Notes under the pieces: generated by a model
Told to the model about the DNA's origin: nothing
Database searches by the model: none
The model's input: only the letters and a program-made list of their open reading frames with translations
Part shown: in pieces, positions 25,672-31,000 of the stretch
Position numbering within the stretch: the first letter of the stretch is position 1
Layout: each line of letters opens with the position of its first letter
Translations under genes and position numbers: made by a program
Origin: an uncultured Bacteroidales bacterium
GTDB lineage: Bacteria > Bacteroidota > Bacteroidia > Bacteroidales > UBA4417
Length of the DNA stretch: 64,000 nt
Direction of reading: 5' to 3'
Assembly (NCBI GenBank): GCA_903879715.1
Contig: CAIRMR010000024.1
Span: 1 to 64,000, forward strand

Positions 25672-25848
25672 GGTTAACGTATTTATATACAAATTTAGTT
25701 TCTTTCTTTACTTTATCATGAGTTGTTTGAATAAAATTATATAGTTTTCTGGATTTAAAAATAAAGCGGAGTAATGAATACAGCCATTTTGCCGCCTGAA
25801 AATTACAGATGCATCGCTGATACCATACTTCATGTTAAAGAATATCTG

Positions 25849-25856
25849 TATATTTG
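25849..25856 (+). promoter_or_regulatory. Candidate thr operon promoter, -7 box TATATTTG
   Basis: TATATTTG is an exact TAnnTTTG match. A start about 7 bp further on (near 25863) would place the leader-peptide ATG 16 nt into the transcript. No strong TTTG is seen at -33. Confidence 0.5.
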
Positions 25857-25878
25857 CAGATAGGAACTTTAAAATAAG

Positions 25879-25926
25879 ATGAATTACTCAGAAACCGAAT
25901 TTACTTTTAATACAACCCAACCCTGA
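25879..25926 (+). CDS. thrL: Threonine operon leader peptide (15 residues)
   Basis: ATG at 25879, TGA at 25924: MNYSETEFTFNTTQP. Four of 15 codons are threonine (ACC, ACT, ACA, ACC), with the last two adjacent and immediately before the first hairpin. Too short for the ORF track. The position between a promoter box and a hairpin switch directly upstream of thrA is that of an attenuator leader peptide. Its sequence is unrelated to the gammaproteobacterial ThrL (which also reads Ile codons), so the symbol is by function only. Confidence rests on the match between codon content and the downstream biosynthetic genes. Confidence 0.75.
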   Translation: MNYSETEFTFNTTQP

Positions 25927-25992
25927 CTGGGTTGAGACGGAATGCTTTTAAAATGCGCGCCTTTCTCAACATCAGGGAAAGGCATTTTTTTT
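25918..25992 (+). promoter_or_regulatory. Transcription attenuator of thrABC (pause hairpin, antiterminator, terminator)
   Basis: Pause hairpin: CAACCC (25918-25923) with GGGTTG (25929-25934), overlapping the leader stop codon. Terminator: GCCTTTC (25959-25965) with GAAAGGC (25977-25983), then A and eight Ts (25985-25992). Antiterminator: GTTGAGA (25931-25937) is a perfect complement of TCTCAAC (25964-25970), and CCCTGA (25921-25926) of TCAGGG (25972-25977). This pairing excludes both other hairpins. A ribosome stalled at the Thr codons would cover the 5' arm of the first hairpin and free GTTGAGA for antitermination. Confidence 0.8.
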
Positions 25993-26018
25993 GTCTGAAT
26001 CGAAAAACCTGAATTATT

Positions 26019-28475
26019 ATGCGAATATTAAAATTTGGCGGCTCATCCATTTCTACTCCGGAACGGATTAAAAATGTGATTGATATAGTAAAGCAGTATC
26101 ATTCTTCATATAATGATATTGCGCTGGTTGTATCAGCACAGGGAGGCGTAACTGATCAATTGGTGAAATTATGTGAGTCGATTCCCACAGATAAGGTAAG
26201 TTGCGAGTCAAACATACTTGAGATAGAGCAAAGACATCTTAATTCGATTAAGGAACTGCTGCCAATGGCTCAGCAACCTTCAGCAATGGCTGAAGTAATG
26301 GCAATTTGTAACGAATTAGCCGGAATCACCAAAGGCGCTTCGCTGGTAGGTGAATTAACTTTACGAACCCGCGACCTGATTTTAAGTTTTGGTGAACGAC
26401 TTTCGGCATTTGTAATAACCCACGCATTAAAATCTGAAATTAGTACAGCTAATTATACAGATGCCCGTAACCTGATCAAAACCGATGCGAATTTTGGATA
26501 CGCCAAAGTTGATTTTGAACATAGCAACCGGTTAATTCAGGAATACTTTGCGACAAATAAGGGATTGAATGTAGTAACCGGTTTTATCGGTAGCACATCC
26601 CAGGGACAAACTACAACTCTCGGACGCAGTGGATCGGATTATACAGCTTCTATTTTAGGCGCAGCTTTAAAAGCCGATGCAATCGAAATATGGACGGATG
26701 TTGACGGAGTAATGACTGCCGATCCTCGTTTTGTGAAGGAAGCGCAAAGCATCGAACAGTTATCCTATAATGAAGCGATGGAGATAACTCATTTCGGAGC
26801 TAAAGTTATCTTCCCCGCTACTATGCAGCCAGCCATGGCAAAAAAAATACCAATCCTGGTAAAAAACACCTTTAATCCATCGCATAAAGGCACCCTGATT
26901 TGCAGTGAATCAGGAAAGGGTACCGGTTTTATCAAAGGAATCTCATCCCTCCGTGATATTTGCCTTATTAATATCGAAGGTAGCGGAATGGTAGGAGTTG
27001 CCGGGGTTTCGGCACGTATGTTCAGGGTTTTGGCACAGCACCAGATCAGTGTTATCCTGATCAGCCAGGCTTCATCGGAACACTCTATATGTATTGGTTT
27101 GCTCCAGGAAGAGGCTGAACAGGCATGTCATTTATTGCGAAAAACTTTTTCCGAAGAACTGCATGTTGGTTTAATTTCCGATATTTATTATGAAGGAGAA
27201 CTGGCTGTTGTAGCAGTGGTCGGAGAAAATATGCGGAAAATGCCGGGTGTTTCGGCCCGCGTTTTTGGCCCCTTAGGCCGGAACGGGATTAATGTAAAAG
27301 CAATTTGCCAGGGAAGTTCTGAACTGAATATTTCAATCGTGATTGAGCAGAAAAATTTAAAAAAGACTTTGCGGGTTTTGCACCAATCCTTGTTTAACTA
27401 TGAACTGCTGCAGTTGAACCTTTATGTCATCGGTACCGGTGTAATTGGCAGTAAATTGCTCGAAATGATTGAAAATCAGAAGCAATCACTTGAAGAACAG
27501 AAAATACTTCTTAAAATCTGTGGCATCTGCAACAGCCGCAAAATGATTGTTGGTGAAGAAGATATAAAAAGTTCAGACTGGAAAGATTCACTGGAAAAAG
27601 ACGCTCAAAAATCAGATCTCCGTCAACTTACCGATAGTATCATATCTCAGAACCTGGAAAACAGTGTATTTATTGACGTTACAGCATCCGATGAGCCGGT
27701 AAAGCATTACAACGAACTGCTCTCGAACAACATTGCGATAGTAACTGCCAACAAGCGTGCTAATACGCAGAATATGATTCAGTATAACCTGTTACACGCT
27801 TCCGCAAAAAAACGAAATACTCCGTTTCATTACGAAACTAACGTAGGTGCCGGATTACCGGTAATCAACGTTCTCCAAAGCCTGATTAACAGTGGCGACC
27901 AGGTAAATAAAATAGAAGCCGTGCTTTCGGGAACAATGAACTACCTTTTATCAGAATACGATGGACAGAAACCTTTCAGCGAGCTCGTACAATTTGCAAA
28001 AGACAATAGTTATAGCGAACCCGATCCCCGCGACGATCTGAGCGGTATGGACGTGGCCCGTAAATGTCTGATCCTTGCCAGGGAATGCGGCTGGGCAATT
28101 GAAGAGTCGGATATTGAGGTTGAACCTTTGATGTCACCTGAGAGTGCAAAAGCGAAAGACATTCCTTCCTTTTTTGCTGAATTGAAAAATTATGACCAGC
28201 CTTTCCATCAGCGGTTTGAAGCAGCAAAAGCAAAAGGTAAACGCTTGCGCTACGTGGCAAAAATTGAAGGTGGCAAAGCCAAAGTTTCAGTGATGGAGGT
28301 TGACGATACGCACGCTTTTTACAGCTTACGCGGAACCGAAAACTGCATCAGCCTTACTACCAAATATTACCAGCAGTATCCTATGGTTATCAAAGGCCCG
28401 GGTGCAGGAGTTAATGTGACTTCGGCCGGAGTTTTGGCGGATATTGTACGAATTGCGGAAGGACTGAAACGTTAA
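26019..28475 (+). CDS. thrA: Bifunctional aspartokinase/homoserine dehydrogenase
   Basis: 818 residues, the standard length. The N-terminal aspartokinase (about 1-300, MRILKFGGSSIS, SGSDYTASILGA) is followed by tandem ACT regulatory domains (about 310-455, VGVAGVSARMFRVL and MPGVSARVFGPL). The C-terminal homoserine dehydrogenase has NAD(P)-binding VIGTGVIGSKLLEMI and the catalytic part GTMNYLLSEYDGQ … YSEPDPRDDLSGMDVARK. It catalyses the first and third steps from aspartate towards threonine. It is the first gene of thrABC and lies 26 bp after the attenuator U-tract. Feedback inhibition by threonine through the ACT domains is expected from the family. Confidence 0.97.
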   Translation: MRILKFGGSSISTPERIKNVIDIVKQYHSSYNDIALVVSAQGGVTDQLVKLCESIPTDKVSCESNILEIEQRHLNSIKELLPMAQQPSAMAEVMAICNELAGITKGASLVGELTLRTRDLILSFGERLSAFVITHALKSEISTANYTDARNLIKTDANFGYAKVDFEHSNRLIQEYFATNKGLNVVTGFIGSTSQGQTTTLGRSGSDYTASILGAALKADAIEIWTDVDGVMTADPRFVKEAQSIEQLSYNEAMEITHFGAKVIFPATMQPAMAKKIPILVKNTFNPSHKGTLICSESGKGTGFIKGISSLRDICLINIEGSGMVGVAGVSARMFRVLAQHQISVILISQASSEHSICIGLLQEEAEQACHLLRKTFSEELHVGLISDIYYEGELAVVAVVGENMRKMPGVSARVFGPLGRNGINVKAICQGSSELNISIVIEQKNLKKTLRVLHQSLFNYELLQLNLYVIGTGVIGSKLLEMIENQKQSLEEQKILLKICGICNSRKMIVGEEDIKSSDWKDSLEKDAQKSDLRQLTDSIISQNLENSVFIDVTASDEPVKHYNELLSNNIAIVTANKRANTQNMIQYNLLHASAKKRNTPFHYETNVGAGLPVINVLQSLINSGDQVNKIEAVLSGTMNYLLSEYDGQKPFSELVQFAKDNSYSEPDPRDDLSGMDVARKCLILARECGWAIEESDIEVEPLMSPESAKAKDIPSFFAELKNYDQPFHQRFEAAKAKGKRLRYVAKIEGGKAKVSVMEVDDTHAFYSLRGTENCISLTTKYYQQYPMVIKGPGAGVNVTSAGVLADIVRIAEGLKR

Positions 28476-28586: not shown

Positions 28587-29540
28587 ATGACCAAATACAA
28601 ATCAGTAACAGCTTTTGCCCCTGCAAGTGTAGCCAATGTGGGTTGCGGTTTCGATATAATGGGCTTTGCCGTGCAGGGCATTGGAGATATTGTTACCGTC
28701 TCTTTGCAACCCGGTTCCGATAATTCAAAAATAACTTTAACCGGTACATACGGTCATCTTACTCCAACCGAAAGAAGTAAAAATACGGCTGGTGTGGCCA
28801 TCAATGCTTATCTGCAGGCAATCGGTGAAACTGATATAGGCTTAAGTATAACTCTTCAGAAAAACATGCCATTAGGAAGCGGTATGGGAAGCAGCGCGGC
28901 GAGTTCAGCTGCGGCGGTATTTGCGGTTAATCATTTATTAGGCAATCCCCTAAGCACTCATGAATTAATTCCTTTCACCATGGAGGGCGAACGCATTGCC
29001 TGCGGATCGGCTCATGCCGATAATGTGGCTCCTGCCTTGCTGGGTGGTTTTGTACTCATACGCAGTTATGATCCACTGGATATCATATCGGTGAAAGGGC
29101 CGGATGATTTGTTTGCGGCCGTTGTTCATCCTCATATCGAACTAAATACTTCAGATTCAAGACGGGTATTAAATAAAGAAGTTTCTGTTGCTGATGCAAT
29201 TATACAAAGCGCAAATACTGCCGGATTTATGGTTGCGTTGATCAAGAGCGATTATGAATTGATGAAACGTTCAATGTCCGATCTCTTAGCCGAACCCAGG
29301 CGAACACAACTTATTCCCGGCTATGACGCGATAAAAAATGCCGCTATGGAAGCAGGTGCAATTGGTTGCGGAATTGCAGGTTCGGGGCCTTCGATATTTG
29401 CACTCTGTAAAGGAGAAACTACAGCAAAGCAGGTTGCAAAAATCATCCGGGATGGTTTCACAAACATTGGGCTTATCAACGAAGGCTATGTTTCACAATT
29501 AAATGCACCGGGAACTGTAATAATTGATTCGGTAGAATAG
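28587..29540 (+). CDS. thrB: Homoserine kinase
   Basis: 317-residue GHMP kinase that phosphorylates homoserine, the fourth step of threonine synthesis. The N-terminus reads VTAFAPASVANVGCGFDIMGFA. The ATP-binding GHMP motif is MPLGSGMGSSAASSAAA, and the C-terminal motif is GCGIAGSGPSIFALC. It lies between thrA and thrC on the same strand. The 111-bp gap from thrA is filled by a microsatellite and contains no clear terminator. Confidence 0.97.
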   Translation: MTKYKSVTAFAPASVANVGCGFDIMGFAVQGIGDIVTVSLQPGSDNSKITLTGTYGHLTPTERSKNTAGVAINAYLQAIGETDIGLSITLQKNMPLGSGMGSSAASSAAAVFAVNHLLGNPLSTHELIPFTMEGERIACGSAHADNVAPALLGGFVLIRSYDPLDIISVKGPDDLFAAVVHPHIELNTSDSRRVLNKEVSVADAIIQSANTAGFMVALIKSDYELMKRSMSDLLAEPRRTQLIPGYDAIKNAAMEAGAIGCGIAGSGPSIFALCKGETTAKQVAKIIRDGFTNIGLINEGYVSQLNAPGTVIIDSVE

Positions 29541-29701: not shown

Positions 29702-31000
29702 ATGAATTACTACGACATAAAAAATCCAAACCAAAAAGTTTCGCTGAAGGAAGCAGTGCTTAAAAGTATTTCGGCTGAATCAGGTTTGTATATGCCTGAC
29801 TATATTCCGGCTTTACCTGGTTCGTTTTTTGCCAATCTTTCAAATCTGAACCTGCAGGAAATTGCCTTTGAAGTTTCAAATGCCATGTTAGGCGAGGATA
29901 TTCCGAAAGAAGCATTAAAACAAATTGTAAACGAGGCCATTTCCTTTCCAATTCCATTAAACAGACTGGATGAAAACCTGTTCGTGCTCGAATTGTTTCA
30001 TGGACCAACTCTTGCTTTTAAAGATGTTGGGGCTAGGTTTATGGCCGGGCTGTTCCAGTATTTTTTGCGAAACGAAAACCGTGAAGTTGTAATTCTGGTA
30101 GCCACTTCGGGGGATACAGGCAGTGCTGTTGCCAACGCTTTTTATAATAGTAAAGGAGTTAAAGTAGTAATTCTTTATCCTTCGGGCAAAGTAAGCGAAT
30201 TGCAGGAGAAGCAACTCACTACCATGGGTGGCAATATTACAGCTCTGGAAGTGGAAGGTAATTTTGATGATTGCCAGCGGATGGTGAAACAGGCTTTTGC
30301 CGATGCGGAACTTAATCAGAAGTTGAACCTTACTTCTGCCAATTCTATCAATTTTGCTCGCTTATTCCCACAATCTTTCTTTTATTTCAATGCAATAGCG
30401 CAACTGGGTAAGGTTGATAAGCCTGTAGTGATAAGCGTTCCCAGCGGGAATTTTGGCAATCTTACATCCGGTCTTATAGCTAAGAAAATGGGCTTGCCGG
30501 TTCACCGGTTTATCGCTGCCACCAATCGCAACCATGTTGTTCCCGATTATTTAAAAAGCGGTGAATACCAGCCACAGCAAACGCATCATACTATTACCAA
30601 TGCTATGGATGTTGGCAATCCAAGCAATTTTCCAAGGATGCAGGAAATTTATCAGAAACAACAACTTGCTATGGCAGCCGATATTAAAGGATATTGGTAC
30701 ACTGACGACCAAACAAGGTCAGCGATGGTTGATTTGCAAACCACATATTCCTATCAATCCGATCCTCATGGGGCTGTGGCGTATGCAGGACTTAAAGAAT
30801 CTGGATTACTGAATGACAGTATTGGTATTTTCCTGGAAACAGCGCATCCGGCTAAATTTCCGGAAGAAGTGGAAAAGTCAACTGCTGTTGAAGTGCAAAT
30901 ACCTGATACTTTAAAAGAAATAATGAAGTTGGAAAAGAATGCAATCAAAATTCCAAATGAGTACAACTTCCTGCTTCAATATTTGAATAAAATGGTCTAA
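29702..31000 (+). CDS. thrC: Threonine synthase
   Basis: 432-residue PLP enzyme converting O-phosphohomoserine to threonine. The PLP lysine is in TLAFKDVGARFMAG, the substrate region is VATSGDTGSAVANAF, and the phosphate-binding segment is VPSGNFGNLTSGL. It is the last gene of the thr operon, 161 bp after thrB. Its stop codon overlaps the converging DUF6483-like gene by four bases, so no separate intergenic terminator exists between them. Length and motifs are complete. Confidence 0.97.
   Translation: MNYYDIKNPNQKVSLKEAVLKSISAESGLYMPDYIPALPGSFFANLSNLNLQEIAFEVSNAMLGEDIPKEALKQIVNEAISFPIPLNRLDENLFVLELFHGPTLAFKDVGARFMAGLFQYFLRNENREVVILVATSGDTGSAVANAFYNSKGVKVVILYPSGKVSELQEKQLTTMGGNITALEVEGNFDDCQRMVKQAFADAELNQKLNLTSANSINFARLFPQSFFYFNAIAQLGKVDKPVVISVPSGNFGNLTSGLIAKKMGLPVHRFIAATNRNHVVPDYLKSGEYQPQQTHHTITNAMDVGNPSNFPRMQEIYQKQQLAMAADIKGYWYTDDQTRSAMVDLQTTYSYQSDPHGAVAYAGLKESGLLNDSIGIFLETAHPAKFPEEVEKSTAVEVQIPDTLKEIMKLEKNAIKIPNEYNFLLQYLNKMV

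Follow-up and report, generated by a model that had tools for sequence, protein, structure and literature searches.

The window, a stretch of 64,000 nucleotides from an uncultured Bacteroidales bacterium, carries thrA, thrB and thrC in this order on its plus strand, behind a leader region (positions 25849-26018) that had been read as a threonine-responsive transcription attenuator. All three genes passed the curated NCBIfam cut-offs (Table 1), and no plus-strand terminator was found in the thrA-thrB and thrB-thrC gaps. The gene upstream of the leader lies on the opposite strand, so the only possible targets of the terminator found in the leader are the thr transcript and something that begins a little before it.

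Table 1. Features of the leader region and the genes behind it, in window positions
Feature	Position	Strand	Remarks
Promoter box TATATTTG, TAnnTTTG-type -7	25849..25856	+	Read from sequence
Leader ORF encoding MNYSETEFTFNTTQP and a stop, 15 codons	25879..25926	+	ATG 25879, TGA 25924-25926
Pause hairpin (1:2) CAACCCA/TGGGTTG	25913-25919/25928-25934	+	Overlaps last Thr codons and stop
Antiterminator strand a, GTTGAGA	25931..25937	+	Pairs with strand b
TGCT, invariant	25943..25946	+	TGC ends 11 nt behind pause hairpin
Antiterminator strand b, TCTCAAC	25964..25970	+	Overlaps terminator 5' arm and loop
Intrinsic terminator GCCTTTCTC-AACATCA-GGGAAAGGC	25959-25983, then A, T8 25985-25992	+	Terminator scan
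thrA, bifunctional aspartate kinase/homoserine dehydrogenase I	26019..28475	+	NF006959, 1009.6 bits (cut-off 726)
thrB, homoserine kinase	28587..29540	+	NF002288, 361.6 bits (cut-off 194)
thrC, threonine synthase	29702..31000	+	TIGR00260, 307 bits (cut-off 167.1)

Parts of the thrABC leader

Every part that the original prediction had listed, namely a promoter box, a 15-codon open reading frame (ORF) with four Thr codons, a putative pause hairpin and a terminator with its T8, can be read directly in the sequence. The promoter box was assigned on the basis of TAnnTTTG, which we take to be the Bacteroidota -7 promoter consensus; a box of this type is kept in four relatives (L002, L031, L035, and L110), where its spacing to the leader ATG is similar. 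The Thr codons are codons 6, 9, 12, and 13 of the leader ORF (ACC at 25894, ACT at 25903, ACA at 25912, and ACC at 25915), and only two of them are adjacent. For the pause hairpin, an alternative register in which CAACCC at 25918-25923 pairs with 25929-25934 is equally possible. The terminator is a strong one, with a 9-bp stem and a 7-nt loop ahead of its T8, and the 7-bp GTTGAGA/TCTCAAC pairing is mutually exclusive both with the pause hairpin and with the terminator. Folding of the leader RNA, which had been proposed as a check, showed that the 138-nt RNA folds 2.5 standard deviations better than shuffled sequences.

We also considered how easily such a combination could occur by chance. There are nine terminators on the two strands of the window, and that of the thrABC leader alone has a 7-nt Watson-Crick alternative partner just upstream; it is also the only one of the nine that is preceded by a short ORF rich in one amino acid. 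This is a moderate signal from the window taken by itself, and it is the relatives that decide the question. Four Thr codons in 15 are unconvincing alone; the case for a predicted Thr attenuator is made by conservation.

Conservation of the leader in related Bacteroidales

Orthologous thrA genes were collected from whole genomes and GTDB contigs of uncultured Bacteroidales belonging to the genus of the window and its neighbors. We found a leader of the window type in eight relatives with a ThrA identity of 74-95% (L002, L031, L035, L032, L033, L040, L037, and L110), which gives nine leaders with the window; the organisms that have this leader type are known from metagenome assemblies only. A leader of this type was not found within the stretch read in L036 and L038, and L039 has a Thr leader with a different sequence. 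The Thr-rich ORF, the pause hairpin, the antiterminator, and the terminator are all kept in each of the nine leaders. The leader peptides themselves have diverged (MNYSETEFTFNTTQP, MNYSETGFTHNTTQP, MNYSKTHFTFTTTQPR, MNSADMKTTTTTTQPPRG, MHRADMKTTSTTTTQPPQG, MKHQLHTIITITTTRPQTS, MMQLLQTIITITTTRPSEG, and MNLSFTVSTFTTTGPPLG), but the Thr codons are kept despite this divergence, as are the spacing between them and the hairpin and the frame in which the RNA is read. The stop codon is a TGA inside GGGTTGAG in five leaders (GAGTTGAG in L040), while the window, L002, L031, and L035 have gained an earlier in-frame stop, behind which the older TGA inside GGGTTGAG still follows in frame. We read this retained TGA (within 25924-25936 in the window, and in its orthologues) as a trace of leader ORF shortening.

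The pause hairpin has 6 to 7 pairs in all nine leaders, with a variable 5' arm (CAACCC, CAACCT, or CGGCCC) and a nearly fixed 3' arm. The antiterminator, GTTGAG(A)/(T)CTCRAY, is likewise present in all nine, with one wobble in L032 and two in L033, and the terminator stem of these two leaders has changed along with the wobbles. Conservation of a Thr-rich ORF and of base pairing among relatives, which had been named as a check, was observed, but formal covariation is limited to these wobbles, the antiterminator columns being nearly invariant. Of the two alternative pairings originally proposed to break the hairpin and the terminator, GTTGAGA/TCTCAAC is the conserved one. The other, CCCTGA/TCAGGG, was rejected as a functional pairing; it is lost in L002 and L031 (CCTTAA) and in others, and a ribosome that stalls on the Thr codons would mask it.

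We also found TGC at 11 nt behind the hairpin, with identical spacing, in each of the nine leaders. The bases G25934, T25943, and G25944 fit the pause consensus G-10 Y-1 G+1 (PMC9291695), and the same bases also pair in a predicted extended antiterminator stem, so that the conservation of TGC may reflect either a pause site or a part of that stem. In a search of 60 genomes, the 16-base pattern GTTGAGN6TGCTN12-28CTCAAC matched at window-type thrA leaders only, and the reversed controls gave no match.

These data bear on two other readings of the locus. In one, the terminator is the constitutive stop of a short independent transcript (an sRNA or an upstream unit), the short ORF is accidental, and thrABC has its own promoter behind the terminator. 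A candidate for such a promoter exists as one weak sigma-70-like match (25991-26020) that is no better than those in shuffled sequences. Against this reading, only 26 nt separate the T8 from the thrA ATG, no other gene ends at the terminator, given the orientation of the upstream gene, and a constitutive stop is at odds with Thr codons that are kept in a changing peptide and with the conserved frame and alternative pairing; we regard this reading as very improbable. A riboswitch, a T-box, or a protein-bound leader that senses threonine or tRNA-Thr directly, with an ORF that has no role, is in our judgment less probable still. A terminator/antiterminator pair is compatible with such devices too, but no Rfam family reached its gathering score at the leader, nothing credible appeared at an E value of up to 5, and the T-box and riboswitch families of Rfam gave no match for it. 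In addition, the alignment has no conserved domain beyond the ORF, the hairpins, and TGCT, and the feature that is conserved is a coding frame.

Predicted folds and proposed mechanism

We folded the nascent RNA at the stage when the 3' arm of the terminator has yet to be transcribed, and masked the ribosome footprint (the A-site codon and 10 nt downstream were assumed to be covered). When the A site held one of the last two Thr codons, the antiterminator formed in all nine nascent folds, at -11 to -15 kcal/mol, in agreement with the folding expected for an attenuator; in L040, where the last Thr codon is too close to the stop, antitermination resulted from the stall at the penultimate codon only. 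With the ribosome at the stop codon, the antiterminator was abolished in all nine. Like the parts, their conservation, and the mutually exclusive pairings, this effect of ribosome position on the predicted folds is a direct observation on the nine sequences.

Equilibrium folding with the full terminator was discarded as a test of state, as it did not separate the two states that nascent folding separates. At equilibrium, a stalled ribosome does not keep the terminator from beating the antiterminator in most orthologues, so the switch would have to be kinetic and depend on what is transcribed first, as it does in the classical attenuators. Nascent RNA free of ribosomes often folds into the antiterminator instead of the pause hairpin, and a super-attenuated state, as in trp, is thus not clearly predicted.

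From this we conclude that the thrABC leader very probably acts as a ribosome-mediated (leader-peptide) transcription attenuator and controls thrABC according to the supply of charged tRNA-Thr. The start site, translation of the leader ORF, pausing, termination, and the response to threonine are points that we infer from the arrangement as follows. Transcription would start just behind TATATTTG, the hairpin at 25913-25934 would form, and the polymerase would pause near 25943-25945 until a ribosome arrives on the 15-codon leader. When threonine is ample, the ribosome would reach the stop codon and cover GGGTTGAGA, so that the terminator at 25959-25983 could form and transcription would end in the T8. 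A shortage of Thr-tRNA would make the ribosome stall on ACA ACC (codons 12-13), where it would cover the hairpin's 5' arm and free GTTGAGA, which would pair with TCTCAAC before the 3' arm of the terminator exists; the terminator would then be blocked and thrABC read.

Threonine leaders elsewhere and their relation to known systems

Our survey covered 103 distinct upstream regions, each no longer than 450 nt, of bifunctional thrA homologues that came from several phyla. In these we looked for an ATG ORF of 8 to 45 codons with at least 4 codons for one amino acid in eight codons and a terminator no more than 90 nt behind it. Such a combination was found for Thr in 20 regions, for Ile in 1, and in none for any of the remaining 18 amino acids. 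The 20 include the window clade, Parapedobacter (L060), Pontibacter (L077), Ancylomarina (L084-L086), Melioribacter (L053), and others, and the leaders outside the window clade have sequences unrelated to that of the window. Together with the nine leaders that keep all parts and the thr pathway genes downstream, this excess of Thr (20 against 1 for the next amino acid) supports the predicted Thr-responsive attenuator upstream of thrABC.

The signal could also be broader than threonine, namely Thr plus Ile or slow translation generally, with attenuation otherwise as proposed. The leader had been described as reading Thr only, without Ile codons, which is true of seven of the nine leaders, that of the window included; L040 and L037 read TIITITTT, and Ile codons also occur in several distant leaders, as in enterobacterial thrL. 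Since Thr alone is clearly enriched across the 103 regions, we consider a broader signal unlikely and retain charged tRNA-Thr as the probable signal.

Thr-rich leader ORFs upstream of thrA were also seen outside Bacteroidota, in L053 (Melioribacter), L078, L079, and L089 (Parashewanella), with a terminator in L053, L078 (labelled Patescibacteria), and L079 (labelled Chloroflexi). Some of these four records may be misassigned metagenome bins.

In two genomes of the window's genus, L032 and L033 (the same contigs as L005/L006), two complete Thr attenuators stand in series, between about 420 and 90 nt ahead of thrA. The first has the ORF MTKDNNITATTFTTTTLR or MKETNKITSTTVTTTTLG, the terminator GCCATCC/GGATGGC, and an alternative pairing of its own, the bases of which differ between the two genomes (GTAAGGGGT/ATCCCTTAC and ATTGGGGT/ATCCCAAT); the second is the window-type attenuator. 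Two attenuators in series for one amino acid could sharpen the response. The Salmonella mgtCBR leader also has tandem attenuators, for two different signals, ATP and proline (PMC3641672), whereas those of L032 and L033 would sense one amino acid twice and the window has a single one.

A second class of Thr leader is found in Bacteroidales, in which the Thr codons are followed directly by a ACCCCTTRGGGGGT hairpin, mostly without an intrinsic terminator. Members lie upstream of thrA at L010, L014, L015, L017, L027, L030, L118-L120, and L123-L129, and upstream of thrB at L121. A blind search of 198 Bacteroidales genomes for CNACCCCTTRGGGGGT gave 12 places, 11 of which are about 80-235 nt upstream of a thr gene, and the matches are always in frame T-T/A-P-W-G or T-T/A-P-stop. 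In three Flavobacterium regions (L063, L065, and L067), thrA is preceded at about 200-250 nt by a leader that is very rich in Thr (FTTTTTTTL, TTTSTITTTP). The leader ends in a TACCCYTTAGGGGTA hairpin, the loop of which contains the stop, and no intrinsic terminator was found at these three leaders. We tentatively suggest, as a possibility somewhat short of even, that Bacteroidota evolved Thr attenuation early and on their own, and that it diversified there into single attenuators with an intrinsic terminator, same-amino-acid tandems (L032, L033), and a terminator-less ACCC(CUURG)GGGU-hairpin class. This last class has its hairpin directly after the Thr codons and lacks an intrinsic terminator; it would need another mode of action.

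The leader resembles the enterobacterial thr attenuator (thrL) in its target genes, in the Thr codons of a short ORF, and in the order of putative pause hairpin, antiterminator, and terminator. The window leader has 15 codons with 4 Thr, compared to Escherichia coli thrL, where 8 of the 21 residues are Thr and 4 are Ile. All eight Thr codons of the latter are ACC (PMC1183508). Sequence similarity between the two is not detectable, as had been claimed: the Rfam model Thr_leader (RF00506) found nothing at its gathering score across the window and nothing at an E value of up to 5 in 25700-26100. In every respect that sequence can show, the leader is predicted to function like the thr, his, and trp attenuators.

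Vitreschak and colleagues reportedly predicted attenuators in 2004 also in some Bacteroidetes/Chlorobi. For Flavobacterium psychrophilum, of the same phylum, "strong clues" of leader-peptide attenuation upstream of amino acid operons have been described, with the operons unnamed in the main text (PMC9723704); the thrA leaders that we read in other Flavobacterium species have no detectable intrinsic terminator, unlike the window. Small ORFs reminiscent of leader peptides are reported for Bacteroides thetaiotaomicron (PMC7366714), and Bacteroid-trp (RF01692) is a candidate cis-regulatory RNA of Bacteroidetes (PMC2864571) that concerns Trp by name, differs in sequence, and has no Rfam match at the window leader. 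The authors of PMC2965389 were aware of no leader-peptide systems beyond Proteobacteria and Actinobacteria prior to their Firmicutes case, and a survey with Rfam models concluded that amino acid attenuators may originate in gamma-proteobacteria, with few transfers (PMC3766115). Our literature search found no detailed description of a Thr attenuator in Bacteroidetes. What is new here is that the known range of leader-peptide attenuators is widened, a result that is well supported and modestly surprising.

Shared logic with unshared sequence means that a large set of predicted Bacteroidota Thr attenuators goes unnoticed by sequence-based families, and the convergent evolution of attenuation becomes testable. 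The leaders also provide targets for Bacteroidota geneticists, as a two-codon change should shift regulation to another amino acid.
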